64,000 nucleotides of DNA, from contig ONFG01000011.1 in assembly GCA_900317025.1 (NCBI GenBank), positions 89,150-153,149 of the forward strand, read 5' to 3'. The first letter of the stretch is position 1; each line of letters opens with the position of its first letter. The translations under genes were made by a program, and so were the position numbers. The notes under the pieces are model-generated. The model did no database searches and had not been told where the DNA came from. It saw only the letters and a program-made list of their open reading frames with translations. Below, in pieces: positions 16,332-61,505 of the stretch. Origin of the DNA: an uncultured Eubacteriales bacterium (GTDB lineage: Bacteria > Bacillota > Clostridia > Oscillospirales > Acutalibacteraceae).

Positions 16332-16443
16332 AAAAGCCACCTCTTTGTAAGTATATAGAGACGTCTGCTGCGAAAGCTCTGCCGGAAAGCGATACGTAAA
16401 AATGCGCCGCGATCGGGGCGGAGCCTTCGCTTTTTACAACTTT

Positions 16444-45515: not shown

Positions 45516-48500
45516 TTACGGCTTTTCTTTTGTTACGGAAATGCCCTTCTCTGTCGGTGCGGAAGCTACGATCCAAACGTCGCCGACCTCGTCGAGGTGG
45601 TCGCCTGTCTGGATAGCGCCGTCCTTCTTGCCGTCGTCAAGGATCCAGTTGTATTTCTCGATCGTCTCGATCGTGTACTCATACCAGCCGTCGCCGTCTT
45701 CGTCGGTCATCGCGATGCCCGGCCATGCGGGTGCGCCCTTGACCTGACCGTCGCCCCAGAAGTAGAGGTAGGGCTTAAACGCAGCGTCTTCCGTGAGCTG
45801 AACGTGTACGGTAGCAGTCTTCGTGGGGACTGTCGTGTAGTAGTAAACTACCTCGATCTTGCCGTCGGTGTATGTGCCTTCTGCGTTTTCGGGGAGCTTC
45901 GTCTCGTCAAGGATATACCAGTCGTTATCAAGCGGCTCTGTTGTGTAAGCCGTTCCGACTGCCGCCTGCTTCTCTCTCGAACGGTCGATCTCCTTGCCGT
46001 TTTCGTCCATGTGGATAACTACAAGCGAGCCCTTTACAACGTTCGGATCCTCCTCGCCCTCGTCGGGGTTGTGGTCGTAGACCTCTACCGAGGAAGCGGA
46101 GCCGTTGCAGATAACCCAGATGTCGCCCTTTGAGGACATATCGGCTGTCTGAGAGCCGCCTACAGGATCGTTGACGATCCAGTTGTAGCCGTTGCCGTTC
46201 TTGAAGGAGTATTCATACCAGCCGTCGCCGTCGTCATCGGTCATCTTAACGCCCGGCCATGTTGTGCCGTAGCTCTTGTTGTCTGTTGCTGCGTCGTAAA
46301 TACCCCAGAGATGGAGATTCGGAACGAAGTCCGTGTTCGGACCCATTGCAACGTGGATCGTGTTCTCGTATACCTTGTCGGAGGACTTGTAGATGTAATC
46401 TACCTTCGTTTCGCCCTTTACGAATGTGCCGCTTGCGTTTTCGGGGATCGTGTCGATCTCATACCACGGGAAGCTCTGCTCTTCGGAGGTGTAGCTGTCG
46501 CCGGCTCTGCCTCTGAGGGTGATCGTGTCTGCAAGACCCTGACCCTTCTCGTTGAGGTAATTGATCACTACCGTACCTACGCCGCCCTCGAAGAGCTTGT
46601 AGGTGTATGTTACTTCGGAAGCGCCCTTCTTAATCTTGCCGGAAGCGTCGCCGTCTACCTTAACGAGATTGTACTCAAGAGCGAGGTCAGAGGCTGCCTG
46701 AGTCGTGTAATACTGACCCTCGGAGCCTGTGATCGTATACTGACGGAGTACCTTGTTGGTATCCTGATCTACGTGCTTTACGGTGACCGTACCCTCGTTC
46801 TCATAGAAGAGATCACTGAGATCTACCTTGTCATAATCTGCCTTCGGAACGAGGATGAGCGTGGAGCTGGGCTCGAGCGTTACCTTGCCGGAAACGGTCG
46901 CAAGCTCCTTGACGCCTGCCGTGTATCTGTCGACAAGAACGGAGTAGACCGTATCGTCTGCGGCACCGCTTGCAGCGCCGCTCTTCGGAGTCTCTTCAAG
47001 ACCGAGGCTGATGCGAAGCGCGATAAGCGCGTCGTTCGAGGTGATGTCGCCGTCGCCGTCGAGGTCTGCAGCAGCCTTCTGGTCGTCGGTAAGAGTGTCA
47101 AGCTCCAGGCTGCTTCTGAGGATAAGGAGCGCGTCGTTCGAGGTAACGTCGCCGTCGCCGTCAACGTCGCCGCCTGCCGGAGACGAACCGGGAAGCCATA
47201 CATCTGCTGCGCTTGTGCGGCTGCCGTTGAAGATGAGCACCATGTTCGACCATGTCTTGCCGGAGGTGTCAACGAGGTTCGGGAGGTTGTATGCGATAAC
47301 GCCCTTCGGTGCGTCGATCATCTCGATGGCCTTTGCCGTGTCGAGAGTGCTGTCAGCAAAGCCGGGGTATGCGTTTCTGAGCTTGATAAGGCCCTTGTAG
47401 TAGGAAACGATATCGGCGTAATCTGCCGCTCTCGACCAGTCAAGCATATTTACGTCGGCGGGTGAACGGTATGAGTTCTCGTCTCCGTACTTTGTTCTTG
47501 CGAACTCTTCGCCCGCGAGAATGAACGGGATACCCTGCGAGGTCATGACGATCGCGCCGCTGAGCTTGTTGCTCGCTACGAGCATTTCATTTCTGTCGTC
47601 AAAGACGGACTTCTCGGGCTTGGAGCCGAACTCCGTGCGGACAAGTCTGTCCCAGAGGGTGTTGTTGTCGTGGCAGCAGGAGTATACGATGTTCTGACCC
47701 GGCGCCTTTGTGCTCCAGGAATCGCCTCTGTACTGACCCTCAATGCCCTTTACGATAGTGCCGGAGCCGCCGGTGATGCCGGAAACGTAGCCTGCGGAAA
47801 GGTTGTTAAACTTACCCTTGAGGCCGTCGCGGATACTGTCGTTAAAGAAGCCGATCCTCTCGCTTACGCGCTTTGCCTTTGCCTGGTTGCAGAGAGAGGT
47901 CGTGTTGCCTGCCCAGTTGGTGTCGTCCGTGTAGGAAGACATCGACCAGCCCTCGCCGTACATGATGATCCTTGAATCTATCGTGTCGAGGTCGTCGCGG
48001 ATCGCGTTCATCGTGTCGCTGTCATGCAGGCCCATAAGGTCGAAGCGGAAGCCGTCGAGGTGATATTCGGTTGCCCAGTAGTGGAGCGACTCGATCATGA
48101 ACTTCTTGAACATCTCGCGCTCGGAAGCGGTGTCGTTGCCGCAGCCGGAAGCATTAGACCATGAGCCGTCGGGCTTCTGCCTGTAGTAGTAATAGGGAAC
48201 GGTGAGGTTGAACCACGAATTCTCGGTAGCATAGGTGTGGTTATAAACAACGTCCATGATAACGCCGATGCCGTTGTCGTGGAGCGCCTTTATCATCTGC
48301 TTCATCTCGTTGATCCTGACGTTGCCGTCATAAGGGTTCGTCGAGTAGGAGCCTTCGGGAACGTTGTAGTTTTTCGGGTCATAGCCCCAGTTGAAGAGCG
48401 TGTCGTCGTCAGACGTCTCGTCGATCGAGCCGAAGTCATACATCGGGTTGATCTGAACGTAGTTAATGCCGAGATCCTTCAGGTAGCTCATGCAGGTCTT

Positions 48501-49160
48501 CATGTCGCCGGCATTGTTGAGAGTCGTCTCAAACTCTGTGAACGCCATGTATTTGCCTCTGTACTGCTCCGAAACGCCCGACTCGGGATCGTAGGAGAAG
48601 TCCTTAACATGAAGCTCCCAGACCTGAGCCTGCGTCGGGGAATCAACGAGCTGGCGCGCGTCGCTTGCCCAACCCTCGGGGTCTGTCGAGTCAAGGTCTA
48701 CAACCATGGCTCTGTTGCCGTTGACGCCGGCAGCCTTGGCGTAAAGGTCCATTACCTCTTTGCCGTCGGGGCAGAACTCGTTCTTTACGTAGAATGTATA
48801 GTACTGATTTTTAAGGTCGCCGTCGACCGTAACGCTCCATACGCCCGTTGTCTTGTCGAGCGTCATGGGGTGATCGCCGAGCGCCTTCGCGCCCTCCTCG
48901 GCGTCGCTGCCCGTTGCGTAAAGCTTGAGCGCAACGTCGGTTGACGTCGGCGCCCACACCTTAAAGGTAGTAGACGCGGGGGTGTATACGGCACCGAGAT
49001 CGCTGCCGTCATACGTTGTGTACGATGAGTAATCAGACAAATCAATGTCATCGACCGTAGCCGCCTTTTCTGCGCCTGCGCTTACCGCGCCCACAGATGC
49101 GAGAACGGAAGAGAGCATGGCTGCCGTAAGAACAGCCGACATAGCCTTCTTGAATCTCAT
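45516..49160 (-). CDS. Dockerin-bearing type I pullulanase (GH13) with MucBP and CBM26 modules
   Basis: A 1214-residue secreted debranching enzyme cleaving alpha-1,6 links in starch and pullulan. Signal peptide about 1-29; CBM48-like domain about 50-140; GH13 catalytic domain with FNWGYDPKNYNVPEG (pullulanase marker, about 255), MDVVYNHTY near 302, GFRFDLMGLHD near 373 (nucleophile Asp), MYGEGWS near 400 (Glu) and SCCHDNNTLW near 495. A type I dockerin of two Ca-binding repeats (DVDGDGDVTSNDALLILR, DLDGDGDITSNDALIALR) occupies about 659-723 and interrupts the C-terminal beta-domain. Then come MucBP-like repeats (about 777-840, 857-923, 1037-1110) and two CBM26-like modules (about 929-1036, 1113-1200; WPGVKMTDDDGDGWYEY, WPGIAMTDEDGDGWYEY). 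Probably part of an amylosome-like complex. ATG follows GGAGG. Confidence 0.93.
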   Translation of the reverse strand: MRFKKAMSAVLTAAMLSSVLASVGAVSAGAEKAATVDDIDLSDYSSYTTYDGSDLGAVYTPASTTFKVWAPTSTDVALKLYATGSDAEEGAKALGDHPMTLDKTTGVWSVTVDGDLKNQYYTFYVKNEFCPDGKEVMDLYAKAAGVNGNRAMVVDLDSTDPEGWASDARQLVDSPTQAQVWELHVKDFSYDPESGVSEQYRGKYMAFTEFETTLNNAGDMKTCMSYLKDLGINYVQINPMYDFGSIDETSDDDTLFNWGYDPKNYNVPEGSYSTNPYDGNVRINEMKQMIKALHDNGIGVIMDVVYNHTYATENSWFNLTVPYYYYRQKPDGSWSNASGCGNDTASEREMFKKFMIESLHYWATEYHLDGFRFDLMGLHDSDTMNAIRDDLDTIDSRIIMYGEGWSMSSYTDDTNWAGNTTSLCNQAKAKRVSERIGFFNDSIRDGLKGKFNNLSAGYVSGITGGSGTIVKGIEGQYRGDSWSTKAPGQNIVYSCCHDNNTLWDRLVRTEFGSKPEKSVFDDRNEMLVASNKLSGAIVMTSQGIPFILAGEEFARTKYGDENSYRSPADVNMLDWSRAADYADIVSYYKGLIKLRNAYPGFADSTLDTAKAIEMIDAPKGVIAYNLPNLVDTSGKTWSNMVLIFNGSRTSAADVWLPGSSPAGGDVDGDGDVTSNDALLILRSSLELDTLTDDQKAAADLDGDGDITSNDALIALRISLGLEETPKSGAASGAADDTVYSVLVDRYTAGVKELATVSGKVTLEPSSTLILVPKADYDKVDLSDLFYENEGTVTVKHVDQDTNKVLRQYTITGSEGQYYTTQAASDLALEYNLVKVDGDASGKIKKGASEVTYTYKLFEGGVGTVVINYLNEKGQGLADTITLRGRAGDSYTSEEQSFPWYEIDTIPENASGTFVKGETKVDYIYKSSDKVYENTIHVAMGPNTDFVPNLHLWGIYDAATDNKSYGTTWPGVKMTDDDGDGWYEYSFKNGNGYNWIVNDPVGGSQTADMSSKGDIWVICNGSASSVEVYDHNPDEGEEDPNVVKGSLVVIHMDENGKEIDRSREKQAAVGTAYTTEPLDNDWYILDETKLPENAEGTYTDGKIEVVYYYTTVPTKTATVHVQLTEDAAFKPYLYFWGDGQVKGAPAWPGIAMTDEDGDGWYEYTIETIEKYNWILDDGKKDGAIQTGDHLDEVGDVWIVASAPTEKGISVTKEKP

Positions 49161-49269: not shown

Positions 49270-52200
49270 TTACGCCGCTCTCTTTCTGAGAATGAACGCA
49301 GCGATGCCGCCTGCCAGCACCGCAACGCCGCCGGAGGCGAGCCATACGATAAGGCTCTTGCCGTAATGCGGCTTGTAGTTGAAGATAACGTTGATCTCGT
49401 CGGCAGCATAGCTGCCCGCCGAATTTGCCGAGCTGTCGACAAGCTCGTAGCCGAAGAATTCCTTCGGAACGATGTTGTAAGACTCGTCGATGCGCCCGGA
49501 AACGACGTCCTTGTCGATAACGGAGCCGGAGTAGTCGACGTAGATCACATTGACCCTGCCCGTGCTGACGATCTCACGATCGTGCTTGTCGGCGATAACG
49601 CCGTCGTTGATCCACACCTCGTCTGACACAAGATAGCCCTCGTTGCCCGCGAGCGGATCCTGCGCGTTGCCGTGAGCCATGATAACTCTTATGCCGCTCA
49701 CGCCGTCAAGGCTTTCGGAGGGGATCGTGTAAGACCACCAGCCGTCGCCGTCGTCGGTCATCGCCGCGCCCGGCCATGCGCCGGTAAGCTCCTTCGTCTC
49801 GGAGCGGTTCTGAAGCCCGTTGCCGTAGGCGTAAAGCGTGAGGCCGCTCCAGTTGTTCTTGTTGTAGTAATGTACCGTGACCGGCTCGTTCTTCGTCGGC
49901 GAGTACTTGTAAACGATGTCGACGTTGCCGTCGGTGTATTTGCCGGCGCCGTTGTTCGGGAGATGGGTAAGGTCGAGCGCGTAGCCCGTTATCGTCGGGA
50001 TCTCCGCCGTATAGTACCTTTCGCCCGTCCTGCCTCGCTGAACGATGCTCTCGGCAAGCTCGCTGCCCGTTTCGGCGTCGACGAACTTTATCGTAGCCGT
50101 GCCGAACGTGCCTGTGTACTTGTTGTAGCTGAGCGTAACCTCCCTTGCCGTCTCGGAGTAAGCTCCCGTTACGCTGCCGGAGGCCTTGTCGTAGGTGTAC
50201 TCCATGGAAAGCCCCGCGTCGGGCTTTACGGAGTATTTATTGCCGATCGTGCCGGAGATCACCTGTGTTTTGATGACCTCGCCCGTCTCGGCGTTTACGT
50301 GCTTGACGGTAACGATACCCTTTGTGGACTTGAACGCGAGCTTATCGAAGCTCTCTTTGTCAACGAGCATCAGAGCCGTGCCTGCCTTGACCTTCGCCTT
50401 GCCGTCAGTCACGACGGAAAGCCCGGAAAGGCCCGCGCTGTCGCCGTTTACAACGGTGACCCACTCAGCCGGCATACTGCCGCCGGGCAGCGCGATCTCC
50501 TTGTCCTCGCTCGTCGCGTTGAAGAAGAGCGCCGCATAGCTCCACTGCGTTCCAGCCGTCACCTTATTCTCGATCGTGTAGGCGATAACGCCCTTGTCGG
50601 TGTCGAGGAAATTAATGCTCTTCGCCGTCGTGTCGGTAGGATCGGTAAACGGAGCGAAGTGCTTCCTGATCTCGATAAGCCCTGAGTAATACTGCACGAG
50701 GTCGCTGTACTCGTTTCTGCGCTCCCAGTCAAGTCGGTTGACCTTTGATGAGGACGCGTAGGAGTTCTCGTCGCCGTGCTTCGTCCTTGCGAACTCCTCG
50801 CCCGCCTGGAAGAAGTTTATGCCCTGCGACGTAAGCGAAAGCGCCGCCGCAAGCTTGTTCATCGAAACGAGGCTCTCGTTTCTCAGGTCGTAATCGTTGG
50901 CATTGCCGCTCGTGGCAACGAGCTTATCCCAGAGCGTGTAGTTATCGTGGCAGGAATTGTAAGTCACCGTCTGGGTCGGGAGAGCCGCCCAATTGCCGAC
51001 CTCCGCCTTTATTCCGGACTTCACGGCAGCCTGCCCCTGACCGCCCTGTATGTAGCCGCCCTCGGCGGCGTTGAAGTTGCTGCCCTTTACGCCGTCGCGG
51101 AAGCCGTCGTTGAACGCGCCAATGCGCTCGCTCATCTTCGTGACGTTCTGCTGAGTAGCCATAACGGTACCCGGCTCCGCGCTCGTCGGAAGGTTCCAGC
51201 CCTCGCCGTACATCAGTATCTTTTCGCCGCCCTCAAGCTTGTCGAGCGCCTCGCGGATCTGCTTCATCGTCTCGACGTCGTGAAGACCCATGAGGTCGAA
51301 GCGGAAGCCGTCGATGTGGTACTCGGACGCCCAGTAAACAACGGAATCGACCATATACTTGCGGTACATCAGATGCTCCGAGGCGGTGTCGTTGCCGCAG
51401 CCCGAACCGTTGGACCACGTTCCGCTCTCGGTGAAGCGGTAGTAGTAATCGGGAACCGTCATGTTGAACCACGACTTGGCGCCCTCGTATGTGTGATTGT
51501 AAACAACGTCCATGACGACGCCCATGCCGCTGTCGTGGATCGACTGGATCATTTGCTTGACCTCGTTGATCCTGACGCTGCCGTCGTAGGGATTACTCGA
51601 ATACGAGCCTTCCGGAACGTTGTAGTTCTTCGGGTCATAGCCCCAGTTAAACTGATCCTCCTTCGACGACTCGTCAACCGAGCCGAAGTCGAAGATCGGA
51701 AGAAGCTGAACGTAGTTGACGCCGAGCTCTTTAAGGTAATCGAGGCCCGTTGTGCCGGTGCCGCCGCCGTTGACCGTCGTCCCCTTCTCGGTGAAGGCGA
51801 GGTACTTGCCTCTGTTTTTCTCGCTGACGCCGCTTGCCGGGTCGCTCGAAAAATCCTTGACGTTCACCTCCCAGACGATAGCCTCGGACTGGCTGTCGAC
51901 CGATACGTGCCTGTCGTTCTCCCAACCCTTAGGGTCGGTGCTTTTGAGGTCGACGATCATGCCCCTGTTGCCGTTGACGCCCGCCGCCTTGGCGTACAGG
52001 TCGACCGTCTCCTTGCCCTTCTTGCCGTTATAGACGTAATATGTGTAGTATTTGCCGAGCAGATCACCCTCGACCGTCGCCGACCACACGCCGCATTTGT
52101 CGTCATAGGTCATCTCTGTAGCCGAGAGGTACTTGCTGTTTTCCTCCTCGTCGCTGCCCGACGCGTAGATGAGCACCTGCACCTTCTGTGCTGTCGGCGC

Positions 52201-52455
52201 CCATACCTTGAAAGTGGTCGCCTCTTTTGTATAGGTCGAACCAAGGTCGTTTCCGCTGTAAGCCAGCTTATCCAATTCTGCCACTGAACTCTCCTCCAAC
52301 TGAGTTTCGGGCTCGCTGACGGCGCTCTCTGAAGCAGACTCGTTTTCCGCTTCCTCGTCCGTGTCCGCAAAAACACTCACGCCGCAAAAGGGAGCCGCAA
52401 TTATCCATGCGGCCAATACACTGCACAAAAATCTCTTCACTTTTACTTTATCCAC
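49270..52455 (-). CDS. Membrane-anchored type I pullulanase (GH13) with MucBP and starch-binding modules
   Basis: A 1061-residue paralogue of the neighbouring pullulanase. Signal peptide (KRFLCSVLAAWIIAAPFCGVSVFA), an acidic linker, a CBM48-like domain, then GH13 with FNWGYDPKNYNVPEG, MDVVYNHTYEG near 315, GFRFDLMGLHD near 385, LMYGEGWN near 414 and YNSCHDNYTLWD near 500. The beta-domain is followed directly by two MucBP-like repeats (no dockerin), a CBM26/25-like module (AWPGAAMTDDGDGWWSY), another MucBP-like repeat and a C-terminal transmembrane anchor (VWLASGGVAVLAGGIAAFIL then RKRAA). It therefore sits on the cell surface. GTG start at 52455 with GGAGG seven bases upstream is preferred to longer in-frame starts, which would precede the signal peptide with 48 unlikely residues. 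Confidence 0.92.
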   Translation of the reverse strand: MDKVKVKRFLCSVLAAWIIAAPFCGVSVFADTDEEAENESASESAVSEPETQLEESSVAELDKLAYSGNDLGSTYTKEATTFKVWAPTAQKVQVLIYASGSDEEENSKYLSATEMTYDDKCGVWSATVEGDLLGKYYTYYVYNGKKGKETVDLYAKAAGVNGNRGMIVDLKSTDPKGWENDRHVSVDSQSEAIVWEVNVKDFSSDPASGVSEKNRGKYLAFTEKGTTVNGGGTGTTGLDYLKELGVNYVQLLPIFDFGSVDESSKEDQFNWGYDPKNYNVPEGSYSSNPYDGSVRINEVKQMIQSIHDSGMGVVMDVVYNHTYEGAKSWFNMTVPDYYYRFTESGTWSNGSGCGNDTASEHLMYRKYMVDSVVYWASEYHIDGFRFDLMGLHDVETMKQIREALDKLEGGEKILMYGEGWNLPTSAEPGTVMATQQNVTKMSERIGAFNDGFRDGVKGSNFNAAEGGYIQGGQGQAAVKSGIKAEVGNWAALPTQTVTYNSCHDNYTLWDKLVATSGNANDYDLRNESLVSMNKLAAALSLTSQGINFFQAGEEFARTKHGDENSYASSSKVNRLDWERRNEYSDLVQYYSGLIEIRKHFAPFTDPTDTTAKSINFLDTDKGVIAYTIENKVTAGTQWSYAALFFNATSEDKEIALPGGSMPAEWVTVVNGDSAGLSGLSVVTDGKAKVKAGTALMLVDKESFDKLAFKSTKGIVTVKHVNAETGEVIKTQVISGTIGNKYSVKPDAGLSMEYTYDKASGSVTGAYSETAREVTLSYNKYTGTFGTATIKFVDAETGSELAESIVQRGRTGERYYTAEIPTITGYALDLTHLPNNGAGKYTDGNVDIVYKYSPTKNEPVTVHYYNKNNWSGLTLYAYGNGLQNRSETKELTGAWPGAAMTDDGDGWWSYTIPSESLDGVSGIRVIMAHGNAQDPLAGNEGYLVSDEVWINDGVIADKHDREIVSTGRVNVIYVDYSGSVIDKDVVSGRIDESYNIVPKEFFGYELVDSSANSAGSYAADEINVIFNYKPHYGKSLIVWLASGGVAVLAGGIAAFILRKRAA

Positions 52456-52635
52456 TTTACTTCCTCCATTGATCCGACCGCAGACTGCGTCTGGCCCTGC
52501 CTTTTTACAGCAGGAGCACGCAAAGGGTAAAAATGAAGCCGCAAAAAGCCATGTGCAGAACCGCCGCACATCAACCGGCTGCCGGCCGACCGCGCACAAA
52601 AAAAGCGCGCTTTCCCGAGCCGATGTTACCCTTTT

Positions 52636-52880: not shown

Positions 52881-53126
52881 TCACTCGCCCGCCGAGATCT
52901 CCTTAGCGCAGGCGGCGCATACATACTTCGACTTGTACGTCAGAAGCTCCTCCTCGCCGCCGCAGAACACGCAGACGGGGATATACTTTTTGAGTACAAT
53001 CTCGTCGTCGTTCGTGTAGACCTCCAGCGGGTCGTTCGTTTTAAGCCCAAGGCTGCGTCTGAGCCTCACAGGGATCACGATCCTGCCGAGGGCGTCGACT
53101 TTGCAAAGCTCGCCCGATTTTTTCAT
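52881..53126 (-). CDS. AbrB/SpoVT-type transition-state regulator with C-terminal zinc-ribbon-like Cys pairs
   Basis: An 81-residue DNA-binding protein. The swapped-hairpin AbrB domain is residues 1-50 (GELCKVDALGRIVIPVRLRRSLGLKTNDPLEVY). The tail has C-x2-C and C-x2-C pairs (VCVFCGG, KYVCAACAKE), a feature of some clostridial AbrB-like proteins and not of Bacillus AbrB. Likely controls stationary-phase or transition genes. ATG at 53126 has AGGAGCG upstream. The promoter (53189-53217) is followed by a palindrome that could be its own operator. Confidence 0.9.
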   Translation of the reverse strand: MKKSGELCKVDALGRIVIPVRLRRSLGLKTNDPLEVYTNDDEIVLKKYIPVCVFCGGEEELLTYKSKYVCAACAKEISAGE

Positions 53127-53278: not shown

Positions 53279-53318
53279 AAAAACTGCCCCTCGGCAGCCT
53301 TAAAGCCGCCAAGGGGCA
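53279..53318 (-). terminator. Terminator of the zinc-finger protein gene
   Basis: Minus strand TGCCCCTTGGCGGC, loop, GCTGCCGAGGGGCA then GTTTTT, 22 bases after the stop. Confidence 0.85.
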
Positions 53319-53340: not shown

Positions 53341-56300
53341 TCAGCTCTTGCCGCCCTGCGCCATGATGCGCTTTGCCCTTCTCTGGGTGCAGCCGCAGCT
53401 GCAGGCGGTGACGTAATCGTTGTTGATCGTTCCGCACTCGGGGCATTTCCACTCGTCGAAGTACGGTTCACGGTCGTTGTCCTTCTTTGTTGTGGGCGGA
53501 GCTGCCTGTACTACACGGCTTGAAGGAGCCGGCGACTGCTCTGTCCTTCTGCTCCTCATCGAAGCAAATACAGACTTCGGCGGAGTTCTTCTTTCCTCAC
53601 GCTGAGGCTGCTCGGGAATCGGAGGAGGAGTTACGGGCGCCGCCGCCTGCGTTGCCGCTACTGGAGCGGTCACAACGGGAGCCGCTGCCTGAACTGCCGC
53701 TGCCGGACGATAGCCCGGGGCAACAGGTGCGCCCTGCTTCATGAGTCTTGCCTGCTGCTGGGTGAAGCCGCAGCTGCAGACGTCTGTGTACTTATTGTTT
53801 ATCGAGCCGCAGTTCGGGCATTTCCACTCGTCGAACTTCGGTGCTCTGTCTTCCTGAGGTGCAGCGGGAGCTGCGGCAACGGGTGCCGGAGCCGGTGCCG
53901 GTGCAGGCGCGGGTGCCGGTGCGCTTACCTGTTGCTGTCTGTAGCGGTCAAGCCTGTCTTCCTGCTCGGGAGCGGAACGGCCTGCCTTCTCGACAACGCT
54001 CTGGAACATATTCGTCATCTTGCGCTCAAGAGGGCTTTGTCTCGATACCTGCTCGACCTCAACGACTACGTTGTCGTCAAACAGCTTCGGGCCGAAATTG
54101 CTCTGCTGCTCGCGAATAGCTTCCATGGCCTTCTCGCGCTCCGCAGCCTTTCTGAGATCCTCTTCCTCCTGAGCCGCATACGGGTCTTCGCCCGTCTCAT
54201 AGAACCTTGCACATCTGCGCTTTGTCACGCCGCAGGCGCACGTTGTAACGTAGCTTGCATTCGTGCGGTGACAGCGGAAGCACATCCAGTCCTTGCTCAT
54301 GTCCATCTTCGTTCCGATGGTCGGGATACCGCCCTCGGCGGAAGCCTTGACCGGCTCTGCCGCTGCCGGCTCGGGTGCCGGTGCGGGTGCGGGCGCCGCA
54401 GACCTTGCCGGTACGGGCGCGGGTGCTGCCGGTCTTGCCGCAGGCTGCCTGAACGGAGAAGCTGCGGGCTGGCGGTTCTGGAGAGCCGCTGCCGACGCTG
54501 CCGGAGCTGCCGCATGCGGACGCTGATTGAGCGGGTTCTGCGTTCTCGGCGGGAGAGGACTCTGCGTCCTCGGCATTACCGGGCTGCTCGTCCTCGGCGG
54601 GAGCGGAGACTGCGTTCTCGGCGCTATGGGGCTCTGAGTTCTCGGCGCTATTGGACTCTGAGTTCTCGGCACTGCGGAGCTTTGCGTCCTCGGTGCCGAC
54701 ATCGTTGTCGGTGCTGCGCCCGGTGCCGACGGGAACTCGCCGTCTTCTCTGTGGCGCTTCTTTGCCGATTTACGGTAGCCGCACGCGCACGTCGTTACGT
54801 AGTTCGCATTTACAAGACCGCATTCCGGACACTTCCATTCGTTGGTGCCGGCCTCTCTCTCCTGCTTGTATACAGGCTTCTTTCTGAACGCGCTGAAAAT
54901 CGACTTCGTCGCGGGCGGAGCCTGAGTTTTCGGGGTAGCTGCGGGGGGGGGTGTCTGCGGAGCCGCTGCCGGAGCGGGCCTCTCGACCTGTCTTGCGGGG
55001 CGCGCCGTTCTCGGCGCAACCGGGCGGCTCACCGGCGGAGTCTGCTGCTGAGTTACAGCTGCGGCTGCCGCAGGCGTCTGGGGTTCATTTTCATTTTGTG
55101 TATTGAGCGGACGGCGGGCCGTCGAGTTGTTTCTCGAGTAGGCACGGGTTCCCATCCTCTGTTCCATCGCCATTCTGCGCTTTTGCTCCTCGATGCTTCT
55201 TTGAAGCGGCGTGAGCTTGCTCAGATCTACTCCATCATCAAACATATCATCTTGAGCAGCTGCGTCCTTGAGCTCCTGCTCCTCCTTTGCCTGCTGTTCT
55301 TCGCGCTTACGCTCCTCCTCGCGCATCTTAGCCTGAGCCTCGAGGATCATCCTCACGCTGTCGGCTTTCCGCTTAGCCTCTGCGCTCGCCTTTGCATCCT
55401 GTTCTGACTTTTCCTTCTCGGCGTTGGCGGCGTCCTTCTTAGCTTTTTCTTCGGCTGCTGCCTTTTCGGCCTCCGCCTTCTTCTTAGCTTCCTCCGCCTG
55501 TGCCTTCGCTTCTGCTTCTTCTGCGGCTTTGCGCTTCGCTTCTTCTTCGGCCTTGCGCTTGGCCTCTTCTTCGGCCCTGAGCTTGGCCTCTTCTTCGGCC
55601 CTGAGCTTGGCCTCTATCTCCGCTCTGATCCGCTCTCTCATGGCGGCGAGCTCTTCTTCCTTGCGTCTTGCCTCTTCTTCAGCCTTGCGTTTTGCTTCCT
55701 CTTCGGCTTTGCGTCTTGCTTCTTCCTCGGCTTTGCGTCTTGCCTCTTCTTCGGCTTTGCGTCTTGCTTCCTCTTCGGCTTTGCGTCTTGCCTCTTCTTC
55801 AGCCTTGCGCCTTGCTTCTTCTTCGGCTTTGCGTCTTGCTTCTTCCTCGGCTTTGCGCTTTGCTTCTTCTTCAGCTTTGCGCTTTGCTTCTTCTTCGGCT
55901 TTGCGTCTTGCTTCTTCTTCGGCCTTGCGCTTTGCCTCTTCTTCAGCCTTGCGCTTCGCTTCTTCTTCGGCCTTTGCCTTGGCTTCTTCCTCGGCTTTCA
56001 CCTTGGCAGCCTCTTCTTCGGCCTTGCGGTTGGCTTCAAGAGCCGCTTTAAGCTTCTGATCGGCAGCCTTCTGAGCTGCAGGATCCTTCTTCTCCTCGGC
56101 GGTCTTCTTTTCCTCTTCCTTCGGCGCTGCTGCGGGCTTTCTTCTCGAAGCGGCTATGATATCCTGATACGACATCGTGCGCTTGCCTCGTCTGTGGCCG
56201 CATTTGCACGTCTCGTTTGCAACGGGATTGACGTTTCCGCAGAGAGAGCACTTCCACTCGCTGTCGTTTACGAGCCCGTCAAACTCGGTCGGCTCGGCGG

Positions 56301-58005
56301 CCGTCTCCTTTTTGGCTTCGGGCTTTTTCTCTGCTTCGGGTTCGGGCTTCGGCTCCTCCGGCATCTTCTCTGCCGTCTTTTCTTCGGGCTTCTTGTCCTC
56401 TTCCTTCTCATCAATCTTTTTCTCGTCCTTCTTATCCTCATCGAAGAGATAGATCTCTTTCTTGTCGTTCTTCGACGAAGCCGACTTCGGGCGCCATACC
56501 TGAACGGGCGCGTGCATAAACTCGTCGATCTCTGCCTGGATCTCCTCGTCCGTCATCTCGACCTTGTCGGGCATTTCGGGATCGATCTCCGGTTCCGGCT
56601 CAGCGGGCTGCTCGGGCTGAGCCTGCGGCTGCTCCGGCTGTTCCGGCTTCTCTGCCGGCTCTGCGAACTGCTGCCCGGGCTGCGGCATAAAGCCTTGCTG
56701 ACCCTGCGGATCGGGAGTCGACATGAACGAATTGAAGAGCGCTTCCTCCTGAGCCTGACGCGGGAGCTGCTGCGGCTGAGGCTGCCTCTGCTGAGCCGCG
56801 GGGGCTGCGGGGGCTTCCTGCTTCGGCTTGTTTGTCGGCACGTCCTTCGGGATCCTGCCTGCGGCGATGGCCTTAGCTCTGCGCTGAGTGCAGCCGCACA
56901 TACAGGTTCCTACCGTATCGGGGTTGATCGTGCCGCAGTCGGGGCATTTCCACTCGAACGGATCGGGGTCACGGTCAGTGACCTCCTTCTTCGGCGGACC
57001 GAGAAGCATATCCCTCAGGGACGGCTCGTAAACGCCCTCCTTATCAGGCTTCTTCTTCATCTTCGATTTATAAACAACGACCGGCTGATTCGCTCCCTTG
57101 AAGGCGTCTTCGCCAAGCTCGTTCTTTATCTGGTTCTGGATAAATTTTGACGGAACGTTCTGCTGCTGAGCGCCCTGCGGCGGGGTTTCGCCGCCCTGAT
57201 TGTTCACGACGCGCCTTACGACGATCTTCTTCTTGCCGTCGGGGCTTAGCTCTTCGCGAACGATATCGCCGTCGACCGCCGCTGTGGTCCTTGTGTCATC
57301 CTTCGGCGGGTTGACCTTGATAACGGCCTCTCCGTTTTCGGTCACGGGCGGATTCGCCATCTTTGCCCGCTGGATATTCGGATACTTCGGAGCCTGCTGC
57401 TGCGGATACGGCTGATTATAGCCATACTGCTGACCGTAGCCGTACTGCTGATTGGGCTGACCGTAGGGATACTGCTGCTGATAGCCGTAGCCCGCGCCCG
57501 CCTGAGGCTGACCGTAGCCGTACTGCTGATATCCGCCGCCCGCGTAAGGGTACTGACCCTGCTGAGCGTTCGGGGCAGCCTGCTGAGGCTTATTGCCCGC
57601 CTGCTGGCTAGCCGCGCGGAAATCATACTGCCCGGGGCCAGCTCCGGAATAGCCGGCGTTCTGGTTATAGCCGACCTTGTAATTATACTGGCCCGCTCCC
57701 GTACCCGGCTGCTGATACCCGTAAGGAGCCGCTCCCTGCTGGGGGTAACCCGGCGCTGCCGGACGATAACCGCCCTGCTGAGCGAACGGCTGCTGATATC
57801 CGAATTGCGGATTGTAGCCGTACTGCTGGCCGGGCTGACCGTAACCGAACTGCGACGGGTATCCGCTGTTGGGCGGCTGCGGATAAGCGCCCCGGGGCGT
57901 CCCCTCCGTCTGATTCTCCGGGACTTCTCCGCCGGGAGCAGGTGCAGCGTTCTGCTCGTCGCCGGGAGACATTCCCATCGAGTTCATTTTTTCTTGTTCT
58001 TCCAT
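53341..58005 (-). CDS. 1554-residue low-complexity protein with six RanBP2-type zinc fingers and a long charged helix
   Basis: I do not recognise this protein as a whole. Residues about 1-210 are Y/G/Q/P-rich low complexity (repeated YGY, YGQP, QQYGYG). Six zinc fingers fit W-x-C-x2-C-x3-N-x6-C-x-C, starting at Trp 352, 584, 1057, 1240, 1394 and 1519; this is the RanBP2 pattern with one residue less in the last Cys pair. About 640-915 is an E/K/R/A-rich helix with an eight-residue period (RKAEEEAR). Around 1115-1180 is a tandem PRTQSPxx repeat; other linkers are Ala/Pro/Gln-rich. There is no signal peptide, transmembrane helix or enzymatic domain, so it is probably a cytoplasmic scaffold or RNA-binding protein. 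It is monocistronic; start ATG at 58005 follows AGAGGAAG. A role in RNA binding or condensate formation is inference only. Confidence 0.85.
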   Translation of the reverse strand: MEEQEKMNSMGMSPGDEQNAAPAPGGEVPENQTEGTPRGAYPQPPNSGYPSQFGYGQPGQQYGYNPQFGYQQPFAQQGGYRPAAPGYPQQGAAPYGYQQPGTGAGQYNYKVGYNQNAGYSGAGPGQYDFRAASQQAGNKPQQAAPNAQQGQYPYAGGGYQQYGYGQPQAGAGYGYQQQYPYGQPNQQYGYGQQYGYNQPYPQQQAPKYPNIQRAKMANPPVTENGEAVIKVNPPKDDTRTTAAVDGDIVREELSPDGKKKIVVRRVVNNQGGETPPQGAQQQNVPSKFIQNQIKNELGEDAFKGANQPVVVYKSKMKKKPDKEGVYEPSLRDMLLGPPKKEVTDRDPDPFEWKCPDCGTINPDTVGTCMCGCTQRRAKAIAAGRIPKDVPTNKPKQEAPAAPAAQQRQPQPQQLPRQAQEEALFNSFMSTPDPQGQQGFMPQPGQQFAEPAEKPEQPEQPQAQPEQPAEPEPEIDPEMPDKVEMTDEEIQAEIDEFMHAPVQVWRPKSASSKNDKKEIYLFDEDKKDEKKIDEKEEDKKPEEKTAEKMPEEPKPEPEAEKKPEAKKETAAEPTEFDGLVNDSEWKCSLCGNVNPVANETCKCGHRRGKRTMSYQDIIAASRRKPAAAPKEEEKKTAEEKKDPAAQKAADQKLKAALEANRKAEEEAAKVKAEEEAKAKAEEEAKRKAEEEAKRKAEEEARRKAEEEAKRKAEEEAKRKAEEEARRKAEEEARRKAEEEARRKAEEEARRKAEEEARRKAEEEARRKAEEEAKRKAEEEARRKEEELAAMRERIRAEIEAKLRAEEEAKLRAEEEAKRKAEEEAKRKAAEEAEAKAQAEEAKKKAEAEKAAAEEKAKKDAANAEKEKSEQDAKASAEAKRKADSVRMILEAQAKMREEERKREEQQAKEEQELKDAAAQDDMFDDGVDLSKLTPLQRSIEEQKRRMAMEQRMGTRAYSRNNSTARRPLNTQNENEPQTPAAAAAVTQQQTPPVSRPVAPRTARPARQVERPAPAAAPQTPPPAATPKTQAPPATKSIFSAFRKKPVYKQEREAGTNEWKCPECGLVNANYVTTCACGYRKSAKKRHREDGEFPSAPGAAPTTMSAPRTQSSAVPRTQSPIAPRTQSPIAPRTQSPLPPRTSSPVMPRTQSPLPPRTQNPLNQRPHAAAPAASAAALQNRQPAASPFRQPAARPAAPAPVPARSAAPAPAPAPEPAAAEPVKASAEGGIPTIGTKMDMSKDWMCFRCHRTNASYVTTCACGVTKRRCARFYETGEDPYAAQEEEDLRKAAEREKAMEAIREQQSNFGPKLFDDNVVVEVEQVSRQSPLERKMTNMFQSVVEKAGRSAPEQEDRLDRYRQQQVSAPAPAPAPAPAPAPVAAAPAAPQEDRAPKFDEWKCPNCGSINNKYTDVCSCGFTQQQARLMKQGAPVAPGYRPAAAVQAAAPVVTAPVAATQAAAPVTPPPIPEQPQREERRTPPKSVFASMRSRRTEQSPAPSSRVVQAAPPTTKKDNDREPYFDEWKCPECGTINNDYVTACSCGCTQRRAKRIMAQGGKS
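55523..55990. repeat. 24-bp tandem repeats encoding the charged helix
   Basis: Around 18 imperfect 24-bp units (plus strand CTTCTTCGGCTTTGCG-like) encode RKAEEEA(K/R)R. Codons vary between units, so the repeat is partly diverged rather than freshly expanded. It is prone to copy-number change and assembly error. Confidence 0.85.
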
Positions 58006-58143: not shown

Positions 58144-59625
58144 TTATACCGGATGCACCTTGTTCTTGGGGTCGAAGTGTTCGCCGTCGATGCCTGCCTG
58201 CTTGTTGCGGCGGTTCTCGAAGAACTTGACGGCAACTCTGTCGAACTGAGCGTAGGAGAGAACGTCCTCGTCCTGCTCGCACCACTCAGCGCATTCCTTT
58301 CTGAGCTTGTCAAGCTCCGGCTCGAGAAGGTCTGCCGGTCTGCACGTTACAGGCTTCTCGTCGCCGATGATCTTCTTTCTGAACTCGGGGTCGATCGGGA
58401 CGGGCGTCTTGCCGTACTTGCCCTGAACGAGGTCCTTGAACTGACCGTTAACGTTCTTGTAGCGTTCGCCAAAGATGACGTTGCTTACAGCCTGCGTTCC
58501 GACGATCTGAGACGACGGAGTAACGAGCGGCGGGTAGCCCGCGTCTTTTCTTACTCTCGGCACCTCCTGCATTACCTCTTCGAGCTTGTCCTCCTTACCC
58601 ATTTGCTTGAGCTGAGAGAGCAGGTTTGAGAGCATTCCGCCCGGCACCTGGTAGATGAGGGCGTTGGCGTCGGTCGCGAGCATCTTCGGGTCGATAAGGC
58701 CGCTGTCGATGTACTTCTTTCTGAGATCCATAAAGTAGGAGCGGATCTCGGTGAGCGCCACGAGGTCAAGCCCCGTGTCGTACGGCGTACCCTTGAGGGC
58801 TGCAACCATCGACTCCGTCGGAGCGTGAGACGTTCCGAGAGCGAACGGTGACATTGCCGTATCTATAACGTCCGCGCCTGCCTCGATCGCCTTCAAAAGG
58901 CACATTGAAGCAAGGCCGGAGGTATAATGCGTGTGGATCTGTATCGGCAGATCAACTGCCTTTTTGAGAGCCTTTGTGAGCTTCTCCGTTTCATAGGGAG
59001 TGAGCAGAGCCGCCATGTCCTTGATGCAGATGGAATCCGCGCCGACGTCTGCTATCCTCTTTGCATAGTCTACGTAATAATCCGTGTCAAACACGGGCCC
59101 TGTCGTGTAGGAGATGGCGATCTGAGCATGAGCGCCCTCCTTCTTCGCCGCTTTGACAGCCGTTCTGAGGTTGTCGATATCGTTGAGCGCGTCGAAGATA
59201 CGGATAATGTCGATGCCGTTTGCAACGCTCTTCTGAACGAAATATTCGAGAACGTCGTCAGCGTAATGACGGTAGCCGAGCATATTCTGCCCTCTGAAAA
59301 GCATCTGGAGCTTCGTGTTCGGGCAGTTCTTTCTGATGATCCTGAGCCTCTCCCACGGGTCTTCGTTCAAAAATCTGAGGCAGGAGTCGAACGTCGCGCC
59401 GCCCCAGCACTCGAGTGAGTGAAAGCCGATCTTGTCGAGCAGCGGGAGAGCAGGGAGCATCTCCTCCGTTGTCATTCTCGTTGCCGCGAGAGACTGATGA
59501 GCGTCACGAAGGATCGTCTCGGTAACGCCTATCTTCTTAGCCTTGACGGGAGCTTCCCCGCCGCTTTTATTGTTATTGCCGCCGCCCTTTGTGAGGTTTG
59601 CGGAGTTGTTTTTACCTTTAGCCAT
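58144..59625 (-). CDS. Pyruvate/oxaloacetate carboxyltransferase subunit (5S/OadA-like)
   Basis: A 493-residue carboxyltransferase of the HMGL-like TIM-barrel type (ETILRDAHQSLAATRMTTEEMLPALPLLDKIGF). It has the metal-binding His pair (PIQIHTHYTSGLA near 232-244), a carbamylated-Lys-type SICIKDMAALL near 201 and the conserved C-terminal PycB/OadA segment. The biotin domain that ends OadA is absent; it is supplied by the separate carrier protein encoded 15 bases upstream. Together with the 60088-61386 gene this resembles the 5S subunit of methylmalonyl-CoA:pyruvate transcarboxylase, but oxaloacetate decarboxylase alpha is the alternative. The N-terminus has a low-complexity Asn/Gly/Lys extension (about 30 residues). 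Confidence 0.88.
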   Translation of the reverse strand: MAKGKNNSANLTKGGGNNNKSGGEAPVKAKKIGVTETILRDAHQSLAATRMTTEEMLPALPLLDKIGFHSLECWGGATFDSCLRFLNEDPWERLRIIRKNCPNTKLQMLFRGQNMLGYRHYADDVLEYFVQKSVANGIDIIRIFDALNDIDNLRTAVKAAKKEGAHAQIAISYTTGPVFDTDYYVDYAKRIADVGADSICIKDMAALLTPYETEKLTKALKKAVDLPIQIHTHYTSGLASMCLLKAIEAGADVIDTAMSPFALGTSHAPTESMVAALKGTPYDTGLDLVALTEIRSYFMDLRKKYIDSGLIDPKMLATDANALIYQVPGGMLSNLLSQLKQMGKEDKLEEVMQEVPRVRKDAGYPPLVTPSSQIVGTQAVSNVIFGERYKNVNGQFKDLVQGKYGKTPVPIDPEFRKKIIGDEKPVTCRPADLLEPELDKLRKECAEWCEQDEDVLSYAQFDRVAVKFFENRRNKQAGIDGEHFDPKNKVHPV

Positions 59626-59640
59626 TGCCTGTCAATCCCC

Positions 59641-60015
59641 TTATTCCAAAGTGAGGAGAACCGCGCCGGACTCCTTGTTTTCACCCTTTGTGCAAAGCAC
59701 GCTTGCTACCTTGCCGTCCTGAGGCGACTGGATCTCGTTCTCCATCTTCATTGCCTCAAATACTACGAGGACGTCGCCCTTCTTTACGCTCTGACCTTCC
59801 GTTACGTTCACGCTTACGATCGTGCCGGGCATGGGGATATCTATCTTAACAGAGCCTTTCGCCTCTGCCGCAGGAGCCTTTGCGGGCGCCGCGGGTGCGG
59901 GTGCGGATGCCGGAGCCGCTGCCTTTGCGGGCGCTGCGGGTGCGGGTGCCGCGCCTGCTTCTTCTACCTGTACGTCATATGTAACACCGTTTACGGTAAT
60001 CTTTAAATTTCTCAT
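59641..60015 (-). CDS. Biotin carboxyl carrier protein (1.3S/GcdC-like)
   Basis: A 124-residue biotin carrier. N-terminal KITVNGVTYDVQVEE, an Ala/Pro linker (about 22-55) and the biotinyl domain with EAMKMENEIQSP, where the Lys is biotinylated (about residue 90). The order and size match the 1.3S subunit of transcarboxylase. ATG at 60015 has GGGAG about ten bases upstream; a longer in-frame ATG at 60066 would overlap the leader. Confidence 0.93.
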   Translation of the reverse strand: MRNLKITVNGVTYDVQVEEAGAAPAPAAPAKAAAPASAPAPAAPAKAPAAEAKGSVKIDIPMPGTIVSVNVTEGQSVKKGDVLVVFEAMKMENEIQSPQDGKVASVLCTKGENKESGAVLLTLE

Positions 60016-60087
60016 TGTCGTATACTCCCTTTCGGTTTTTGATTTGTTTATATCAAAGCGGAGCAACCGCCGTTGTTTTACTGCTTA

Positions 60088-61386
60088 TCAGATCGTGCTG
60101 TGCTTCTTCGGGAGAGTCGTCTCTCTCTTGCCCGAAAGCATATCGAGAGCGCCCGAGAGCGCAGCCTTCAGCTCGCTTTGATCGACTACCGAATCAATGT
60201 AGCCAAGCTCCGCCGAACGCTCCGCAGAGCATTCGTTCGCCTTGAAGTCGATAAGAGCCTGCTCTCTGCCGGCCTTGTCGGTCTTGAGCTTTTCGGGGCT
60301 GAGAATGATTATCCCCGCCTCCGGGTTGATGGGAGATACGCTTGCGCCTTCAAGCGCAAATGTCATGTCTGTTGAAGCGCCCGTTCCCGCGAGCGCCATG
60401 TAAAACGCGCCGTAAGCCTCGCCCGTAACGACGGTGATCTTTGCCGTTGTAGCCTCGGCGTAAGCCGCCGTAAGCTTTGCCGCCGCCTTGATGCAGCCAA
60501 AGCCCTTGGCGTCTGCCAGCGTGATAACGGGGATCGAATAAGCGTCGCAGAAGCGAACGAGCTTTGTAAGCTTCTCGCAGCCGTCGGTATCGACAACGCC
60601 GCCGCACGTCTGAGCAACGCCGACCGTGTCGCCGTCGAGCCTTGCAAAGCCGACCTTAACGTCCTTCGCGAAGCCCTCGTAAAGCTCGATGAAGCTGCCG
60701 CCGTCGGCAAATGCCGAGATGATGTCGCCGCCGTCCATCGCGGGGATCTCTTCTGTCCGGTATGCGTCGGAAAGATTGTTCTGCGGGAGCATAACGACGA
60801 GATCCTTCGCCGCCTCGATCGCAGCGAATTCATCGTTAGCGCAGGCTGCTATCGTGCCTGCCGCCATATTGGAGTCTGCGCTGCCGCCCTCGCCGTTCGT
60901 ATTGATGGTAAATTTGCCGTCATTGCTCATGATGACGAAGTCTGCCGTCGACGCGAGAAGCGCCGCCGTACCCTCGCACGGACCAAGGATAACGGAGATC
61001 TGCGGGACGATGCCCGCAAGCTTGCCGCTTAAATTGAGCAGCTCGCCGTAAGCCGTTAAAAGCTCCGCGCCCTCGCCGACTCTCGCCCCGATCGAATCGT
61101 AGATGCCGATAACGGGGGTACCCGTCTTCAGCGCAAGCTCATAAAGCTTTTTGAGCTTCGCTGCCTGTGCCTTCGACATCGCGCCGGAGCAGATGTCGCT
61201 GTTCTGCGCGAAAGCGTAAACGGGGCAGCCGTTCACTTCTCCGTAGCCCGCGGCAGCCTCCGCTGGGCCGTCGCCCGACTTGGCATAGGGCGCTATCGGA
61301 GCCATGGTTCCCTCGTCAAAAAGAGCCTCGAGCCGCTTTACCGCGGCCGTACCGGACAGCTCCGCCTTTATCTTTTCAATACTCAT
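60088..61386 (-). CDS. Acyl-CoA carboxyltransferase subunit (12S/MmdA-like)
   Basis: A 432-residue crotonase-fold carboxyltransferase related to methylmalonyl-CoA/glutaconyl-CoA decarboxylase alpha and the 12S subunit of transcarboxylase. Seen: IYDSIGARVGEGAELLTAYGELL (about 110-132), VPQISVILGPCEGTAALLASTADFVIM (about 140-166) and ITVVTGEAYGAFYMALAGTG near 333. It is shorter than typical MmdA (about 510 residues), mainly at the N-terminus. It is the first gene of the set. The membrane beta subunit of Na+-pumping decarboxylases is not next to it. ATG at 61386 has a modest AAAGG upstream. Confidence 0.85.
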   Translation of the reverse strand: MSIEKIKAELSGTAAVKRLEALFDEGTMAPIAPYAKSGDGPAEAAAGYGEVNGCPVYAFAQNSDICSGAMSKAQAAKLKKLYELALKTGTPVIGIYDSIGARVGEGAELLTAYGELLNLSGKLAGIVPQISVILGPCEGTAALLASTADFVIMSNDGKFTINTNGEGGSADSNMAAGTIAACANDEFAAIEAAKDLVVMLPQNNLSDAYRTEEIPAMDGGDIISAFADGGSFIELYEGFAKDVKVGFARLDGDTVGVAQTCGGVVDTDGCEKLTKLVRFCDAYSIPVITLADAKGFGCIKAAAKLTAAYAEATTAKITVVTGEAYGAFYMALAGTGASTDMTFALEGASVSPINPEAGIIILSPEKLKTDKAGREQALIDFKANECSAERSAELGYIDSVVDQSELKAALSGALDMLSGKRETTLPKKHSTI

Positions 61387-61505
61387 ACATAAATCCAACC
61401 TTTCATTGCCTTGCGCAAACAATCAAAACAATGTTATCGTAAACATCAATAAACACTCTGTTTCGCAAAGACCCACTTCGGTCTCACTCAATTAGACTTA
61501 TTGTA

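Follow-up and report, generated by a model that had tools for sequence, protein, structure and literature searches.

What would a bacterium do with a long protein that joins a tyrosine- and glutamine-rich, low-complexity head to six zinc fingers of a kind known mainly from eukaryotes? This question is raised by an open reading frame (ORF) of 1554 residues, starting with ATG, on the minus strand of the 64,000-nucleotide stretch analysed here (referred to as the window; contig ONFG01000011.1 of assembly GCA_900317025.1, from an uncultured Eubacteriales bacterium of the Acutalibacteraceae), where it occupies positions 53341-58005. A previous sequence-only reading had likened the encoded protein to the FUS/EWS-type condensate proteins of eukaryotes, with fingers that bind RNA. 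The analysis reported below points to a different role, i.e., that of a cytoplasmic, largely disordered, and multivalent scaffold with RanBP2-fold fingers that would bind proteins and might permit clustering, a reading to which we give an even chance.

Six finger motifs in a protein predicted to be largely disordered

The finger pattern W.C..C...N......C.C was matched six times in the protein (at residues 352, 584, 1057, 1240, 1394, and 1519) and not once in 20,000 same-composition shuffles of its 1554-residue sequence, in agreement with the six W-x-C-x2-C-x3-N-x6-C-x-C fingers that the sequence-only reading had called. Moreover, 24 of the 27 cysteines lie within the fingers, where they would presumably bind zinc, and six of the seven tryptophans open a finger. 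From its N-terminal to its C-terminal end, the gene is organised as follows:

53341..58005, minus strand: whole gene, encoding the 1554-residue multi-finger protein, predicted to be largely disordered (ORF and charge-hydropathy; present whole or in pieces in 17 of the 22 genomes from the genus)
57331..57900, minus strand: Y/Q/G/P-rich low-complexity region, residues 36-225, of which 5% are charged (composition)
56896..56952, minus strand: finger 1, W352-C370 (pattern)
56482..56589, minus strand: conserved motif EIDPEMPDKVEMTDEEIQAEIDEFMHAPVQVWRPKS, residues 473-508 (alignment of 13 rows)
56200..56256, minus strand: finger 2, W584-C602, the most divergent of the six (pattern; not found in searches of orthologues G002 and G008)
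55402..56049, minus strand: E/K/R/A helix of period 8, residues 653-868, likely a single alpha-helix (sequence periodicity and charge pairs)
54781..54837, minus strand: finger 3, W1057-C1075 (pattern)
54556..54693, minus strand: PRTQSP-type tandem repeats, with a copy number that differs strongly among species (sequence count)
54232..54288, minus strand: finger 4, W1240-C1258 (pattern, AlphaFold2 model of the surrounding piece, Foldseek)
54100..54177, minus strand: predicted helix after finger 4, residues 1277-1302 (AlphaFold2 model, residues 49-74 of the piece, with lower confidence at its end)
53770..53826, minus strand: finger 5, W1394-C1412 (pattern)
53395..53451, minus strand: finger 6, W1519-C1537, followed by a predicted basic helix (AlphaFold2 model, Foldseek)

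All eight segments outside the fingers fell on the disordered side in the charge-hydropathy analysis, by a narrow margin for residues 1086-1225, 1350-1390, and 1431-1510. A Pfam scan of the whole protein yielded no family above its cut-off and no recognised enzyme domain. Since the highest Kyte-Doolittle mean over 19 residues was 1.23, this measure gave no clear transmembrane or signal stretch (a dedicated signal-peptide predictor was not run), and the protein is probably cytoplasmic. Within the reach of these scans, the earlier statement that it lacks both a secretion signal and an enzyme domain was upheld.

Fingers 4 and 6 are modelled with a RanBP2-type fold

In the RanBP2-type fold, two short hairpins surround a single zinc, and a tryptophan is conserved (PMC10349855). 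For comparison, a set of 71 fingers was compiled by adding to finger 6 of the window 70 distinct ones, taken from 15 named loci by means of the pattern W.C..C...[NV]......C.C, so that fingers outside this pattern were left out of the count. Of the six fingers in the protein, 4 and 6 were modelled. The AlphaFold2 model of finger 6, built from the 71 fingers, reached a mean predicted local distance difference test (pLDDT) score of 87.2, with short strands, the second knuckle, and a helix at positions 35-44. In a Foldseek search with this model, the top 14 PDB matches were all RanBP2-type fingers (Nup153, Nup358, RBM5, and ArnA), the class of the Nup153 and Nup358 matches being taken in part from the titles of other entries. 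ArnA was classed according to PMC12852372. Six of these 14 matches superposed at 0.8-1.2 Å over 25-28 residues and the other eight at 1.7-3.8 Å over longer alignments. The model of a 115-residue piece with finger 4 had a mean pLDDT of 73.5, with the finger blocks above 90, and retrieved mostly the same families at E-values that were not significant (with the FUS finger at rank 47).

When solved sequences were searched by profile, whole-finger matches were obtained to RBM10 (E 0.0017), ArnA (0.0039), eL40 (0.0054), and ZNF265 (0.043); three better-scoring matches and the rubredoxins spanned mainly the first half of the finger. A rubredoxin-like or C2H2-like finger was considered and set aside, because the high-ranking profile matches cover mainly the first CPxCG half and the fold search ranks RanBP2-type fingers first.

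The closing zinc pair is C-x2-C in the PF00641 family, whereas it is C-x-C(G) in all six fingers of the protein and C-x2-C in none, and most fingers of the comparison set further differ from that family by Y-V at positions 19-20. PF00641 itself was absent from the Pfam matches of the protein at E<=1 and gave nothing at E<=0.001 in its own genome; among 14 control genomes, it was found only in Sulfolobus acidocaldarius, below the cut-off. The W-x-C-x2-4-C-x3-N-x6-C consensus (PMC6384913), on the other hand, is followed by all six fingers. The earlier designation as RanBP2-type fingers thus stood as far as the fold is concerned, which the models support for fingers 4 and 6, and has to be qualified by the undetected PF00641, the C-x-C pair, and Foldseek E-values of at least 0.19.

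Among known systems, Nup153 and Nup358 (PF00641, protein-binding) share the W-x-C-x2-C-x3-N-x6-C spacing and, according to the models, the fold, and the nucleoporins are likewise long proteins, disordered in part, with several fingers each. The prokaryotic RanBP2-type cases that were met are the archaeal ArnA and the RanBP2-like modules of YprA helicases. The finger of Sulfolobus ArnA (PDB 8s05, 5a8i) matches the present finger over its whole length by profile (E 0.0039 and 0.0065) and superposes on the finger 6 model at 0.8 Å over 26 residues, but it is a single finger, closes with C35/C38 (C-x2-C), and belongs to an FHA-domain protein (PMC12852372). The bacterial cysteine modules of the YprA family, which have been likened to RanBP2-type fingers, sit inside defence helicases (PMC12458937) and are compared here by description only. 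What is new, in turn, is a long six-finger scaffold on a known finger fold, so far seen in one genus.

RNA-contact residues are absent from the fingers

The sequence-only reading had proposed that a tryptophan and an asparagine would let the fingers bind single-stranded RNA, in the manner of ZRANB2 and FUS. In ZRANB2, the RNA contacts are D4, N14, W17, R19, R20, and N24, and putative RNA-binding fingers have been selected by an aromatic residue at position 17 (PMC6384913); elsewhere, the contacts of the same finger are given as Asn76, a Trp, Arg81, Arg82, and Asn86 (PMC10349855). When this numbering was mapped via the C-x4-C form of the consensus (a mapping of our own), none of the 71 fingers had an aromatic residue at 17, R19 (Tyr in 62), R20 (Val in 59), or N24, and three had N14; position 4 was acidic in 66 (10 Asp and 56 Glu). 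Fingers 1-5 of the window agree with the 71 on the contact residues, finger 2 having N14. Since the RNA-contact residues are absent, RNA binding by these fingers in the ZRANB2/FUS mode is unlikely, and this part of the earlier proposal was not borne out.

The same residues bear on the wider idea of a FUS/EWS analogue, in which fingers would bind RNA and the Y/Q/G-rich head would drive RNA-protein condensates. The protein does resemble FUS, EWS, and TAF15 in its Y/Q/G-rich disordered N-terminus (a likeness of the head by composition only) and in its finger fold, as modelled; in addition, the composition of the head is kept in all ten orthologues measured (see below), RBM10, ZNF265, and the FUS finger appear among the matches described above, and a basic tail follows each finger. 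Proteins of the FET group (FUS, EWS, and TAF15), however, have an RRM and RGG repeats in their domain make-up, whereas no RRM was found in the Pfam scan and no RGG occurs in the 1554 residues, which instead include six fingers and a long charged helix. With none of the 71 fingers qualifying by the aromatic-17 rule of PMC6384913 either, such an analogue appears improbable to us.

Nucleic acid might also be bound in another way, i.e., by the basic helix after the fingers, without sequence preference, with the long helix bridging the sites bound. The 14 residues after the finger have a mean net charge of +3.5, which is positive in 71 of the 71, and the finger 6 model contains the above-mentioned helix at positions 35-44. 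However, this tail is often short or non-basic in four other genera (judged by eye), so that a basic character cannot clearly be counted as a feature of the finger module, and no known DNA-binding domain scored above its Pfam cut-off. We therefore regard an organiser of nucleic acids as an unlikely role for the protein.

The head, the spacers, and the long helix

The Y/G/Q-rich N-terminus had been placed at about residues 1-210; its enrichment is evident, with a start that lies near residue 36. The 190 residues from 36 to 225 comprise 41 Q, 35 G, 30 Y, and 26 P, and the richest span of 60 residues consists for 88% of Y+Q+G+P, against at most 47% in 34 other ORFs that we picked from the window for comparison. 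The second-richest of these 35 ORFs encodes 1191 residues (12765-16340 of the window, minus strand) and reaches its 47% near residue 235. A better conserved core surrounds GQYNY and GPGQYD within the head, the composition of which is stable across all ten orthologues for which it was determined (Y 11-17%, Q 16-26%, and charged residues 4-7%), by which the low-complexity region came through the conservation check proposed for it at the outset. Heads of this kind show weak self-association in known condensate proteins; judged by its composition, condensate formation by the present protein is possible.

In the alignments, fingers and short motifs are separated by less conserved spacers. Conserved stretches outside the fingers are those around GPGQYD and SLRDML.GPPKK, the motif at 473-508, and the piece around finger 4. 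The 13 rows of the N-terminal alignment were picked and cut by VWRP and the 12 rows of the C-terminal one by [LM][ST]PLQR, so that those letters are conserved by choice; the former concerns the VWRP end of the 473-508 motif, the preceding part of which is conserved as well, and the latter alignment leaves out shorter pieces as well as G019n and G003n. The helix at residues 1277-1302 is conserved, apart from two rows at 38-40% identity. Against the near orthologue of genome G019, the ratio of nonsynonymous to synonymous substitution (dN/dS; simple Nei-Gojobori estimates, several of which were not a number) was 0.03, 0.10, and 0.03 for fingers 1-3, 0.02-0.07 for the conserved stretches outside the fingers, 0.07 for the long helix, 0.17 for the head, and 0.41 for spacer 386-470.

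The long helix had been described as a 250-residue E/K/R helix with a period of eight. The period is confirmed (identity of 0.58 at lag 8 and 0.53 at lag 16), while the strict extent is 216 residues (653-868) and alanine outnumbers both K and R. At i,i+4 spacing, this region contains 58 E to K/R pairs, 61 K/R to E pairs, and one like-charged pair, with 1000 shuffles giving a mean of 23 and a maximum of 34 for the first of these. Owing to this pairing and to the few bulky hydrophobics (8 of 216), residues 653-868 are likely to form a single alpha-helix and not a coiled coil. The PRTQSP-type repeats of the earlier description were found as well (six PRTQ, five of them PRTQS), the number of PRTQ copies ranging from 0 to 8 across the orthologues and pieces for which it was counted.

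A helix of this length might itself be the working part of the protein, as a TolA-like strut that the fingers merely cap or dimerise. Indeed, the only NCBIfam matches of the protein were two TolA models, an E/K/R/A-rich run is present in seven of the seven full-length members, and the low dN/dS of the helix favours its use. Both models nevertheless stayed under their cut-off (best E 6.5e-8, 32 bits vs. 59) and no clear transmembrane anchor or signal stretch is present, so that the protein was not assigned to TolA; moreover, the longest run varies from 166 to 415 residues, whereas the fingers are closely kept. A strut of this kind thus seems highly unlikely.

Occurrence within one genus

When 40 genomes were searched with finger 6, matches came from 21 of the 22 in the same genus and from none of the 18 in other genera, and the finger profile likewise matched 21 of the 22, with about ten further weak matches within the genus (E 7e-8 to 0.01). 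The long protein or its pieces were found in 17 of the 22 (i.e., in all except G006, G007, G009, G013, and G014) and in 12 of the 13 genomes that are at least 90% complete, G006 being the exception; the layout was thus recovered among relatives, as the sequence-only reading had suggested it could be. All 15 loci of the named collection are from metagenome-assembled genomes titled as uncultured Ruminococcus, Clostridiales, or Clostridia. One of the 15 titles names the dairy-cattle rumen as its source, and the RUG labels of the remaining ones presumably denote a rumen series.

Besides that of the window, six orthologues lie in a single open frame, with 1814-2204 residues from a MEEQ start and five or six fingers. 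The frame is interrupted in the orthologues of G003 and G019. Since the G019 record contains a run of N at that point, its interruption is a gap and no evidence of a break. In G003 (locus L027), the frame changes inside the repetitive helix region with no N in the record, for which an assembly error in the repetitive stretch or real slippage are both possible. Among open-licence papers, no description of such a bacterial multi-finger protein was found, in line with the earlier impression that the combination is undescribed; one candidate paper deals with a choanoflagellate protein and was not relevant (PMC7641849).

The finger as a shared module

Within the genus, one such finger also ends a putative membrane protein, in which two hydrophobic stretches near the N-terminus (by eye) are combined with a long tail rich in Q. 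The N-terminal part of this protein was found in 17 of the 22 genomes, and finger and N-terminal part share one frame in 12 of the 22. Its family includes L041:1887-3878(+) and L044-L054, and MMEQKFDYG...TFAD.F..KN..DPF.QYRK is conserved in four printed members.

In a single genome, a PknB-like protein with a Pkinase domain (L056:43-1659(-)) carries a finger about 90 residues past the kinase domain. Two genomes encode an LRR_5 (BspA-type) protein that combines a charged helix with a finger (L043:2700-4106(+) by Pfam and L055:1558-2970(+) by eye); this finger is nearly identical to finger 3, and the protein is apparently a partial duplicate of the long one. The reuse of the finger on the C-terminus of the putative membrane protein and on a kinase is as would be expected of a docking module.

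In other genera of the family the finger is rare, with matches at E<=1e-4 in 8 of 118 other genomes, of which four (G702, G687, G677, and G102) were confirmed by the stricter pattern; the other four showed no stricter-pattern finger in their stretches and remained unconfirmed. Fingers of these genera occur on Dabb proteins, which resemble the long protein in finger type (four copies in L117:3880-5826(-) and ten in L114:2-3877(-)) and in long, repetitive linkers, but differ in having an N-terminal Dabb domain and no Y/Q/G-rich head in the printed sequences. L114 ends in a VIEKP repeat, with which L116, another contig of that genome, starts. Further fingers of other genera are carried by small proteins with hydrophobic stretches (L115, L118, and L119) and by a SHOCT protein (L122). 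In wider samples, 15 of 196 other genomes of the order matched at E<=0.001, mostly weakly, and 3 of 397 others of the phylum at E<=1e-4, the latter three lacking a stricter-pattern finger in their stretches and likewise counted as unconfirmed.

A proposed multivalent protein-binding scaffold

In the scaffold reading favoured here, the six fingers would adopt a RanBP2 fold in which the second zinc knuckle is shortened (C-x-C), and would most likely bind proteins, be it one another, a shared partner, or the finger protein anchored in the membrane. Fingers 1 and 2 would be held apart from fingers 3-6 by the stiff E/K/R/A helix, the Y/Q/G/P-rich head would contribute weak self-association, and the scaffold may thereby collect clients into clusters. 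A useful comparison is PopZ of Caulobacter, which has no zinc fingers. This disordered protein oligomerises through a helical part, forms condensates, and serves to recruit clients, which indicates that bacteria use disordered hubs (PMC9512792). Binding of proteins is preferred because the RNA contacts are absent and because the RanBP2-type finger of ArnA binds a protein, i.e., ArnB, mostly via hydrophobic contacts (PMC12852372).

Several points weigh against this reading. The best Foldseek E-value for finger 6 is 0.19, with a domain that is tiny. Purifying selection on the head is not above that on a disordered spacer, since the dN/dS of the head (0.17) does not fall below the value for spacer 1086-1225 (0.16, both vs. 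G019), in comparisons with synonymous sites near saturation. With its net charge of +3.5, the basic tail would be compatible with a nucleic-acid ligand no less than with a protein. Finally, the N-terminal part of the membrane protein was not found in the genome of the window or in G004, G001, G013, and G015, so that the membrane finger protein may not be an obligatory partner.

If the scaffold reading is true, the design of finger plus low-complexity region arose outside eukaryotes, without the known mode of RNA recognition. The protein would then be a test case for the role of such a finger in the absence of its RNA-contact residues, and a candidate for an organiser of condensates in uncultured bacteria that have received little study. 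A bolder extension, which we consider possible yet doubtful, is a docking system in which the C-x-C finger would be a shared plug on scaffold, membrane, LRR, and kinase proteins, and in which the scaffold and its tyrosine-rich head would build a cytoplasmic compartment, either membraneless or tethered to the membrane. In that case, a eukaryote-like organisation would have evolved independently, with fingers binding proteins instead of RNA.

Genome neighbourhood

The finger gene lies downstream of carboxylase genes, and is followed by a terminator-like hairpin and a small gene:

60088..61422, minus strand: carboxyltransferase, PccB-like, upstream (named from sequence and context only)
59641..60066, minus strand: biotin carboxyl carrier protein-like ORF, upstream (named from sequence and context only)
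58144..59625, minus strand: oxaloacetate decarboxylase alpha subunit, upstream neighbour (NF008985 above cut-off)
53285..53318, minus strand: terminator-like hairpin of 15 pairs and then five T, 22 bases past the stop codon (consensus match only)
52881..53126, minus strand: AbrB/SpoVT-type protein of 81 residues with a cysteine-paired C-terminal tail, downstream neighbour (family scans)

Because of this hairpin after the stop codon, and because a consensus scan of the gene's strand gave no promoter-like match over the 138 bp that precede the start, the finger gene may be the last gene of the carboxylase transcript; the window holds 15 such terminator-like sites, with 10.8 expected. The finger protein might be linked to the carboxylase genes. 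An oxaloacetate decarboxylase homologue was directly upstream in each of the 13 fetched loci in which the N-terminal part is present. For other genera of the family, 29 of 46 oxaloacetate decarboxylase (OadA) matches were inspected over 1000-1500 bp downstream (two longest frames each), and all 29 loci carry something else there, as judged by eye, with nothing similar to the long protein among them.

Of the 15 loci containing the C-terminus, 7 have an AbrB-type gene downstream (E<=1e-8; some loci with little flank). A phage origin of the finger gene was considered and rejected, the PHROGs search having yielded a single weak match, which concerns the finger and is of unknown function. The 81-residue AbrB/SpoVT-type protein, for its part, matches a phage-borne family annotated as antitoxin (phrog_4681), and two tandem type I pullulanase genes lie further downstream (window 45516-49160 and 49270-52599, minus strand).

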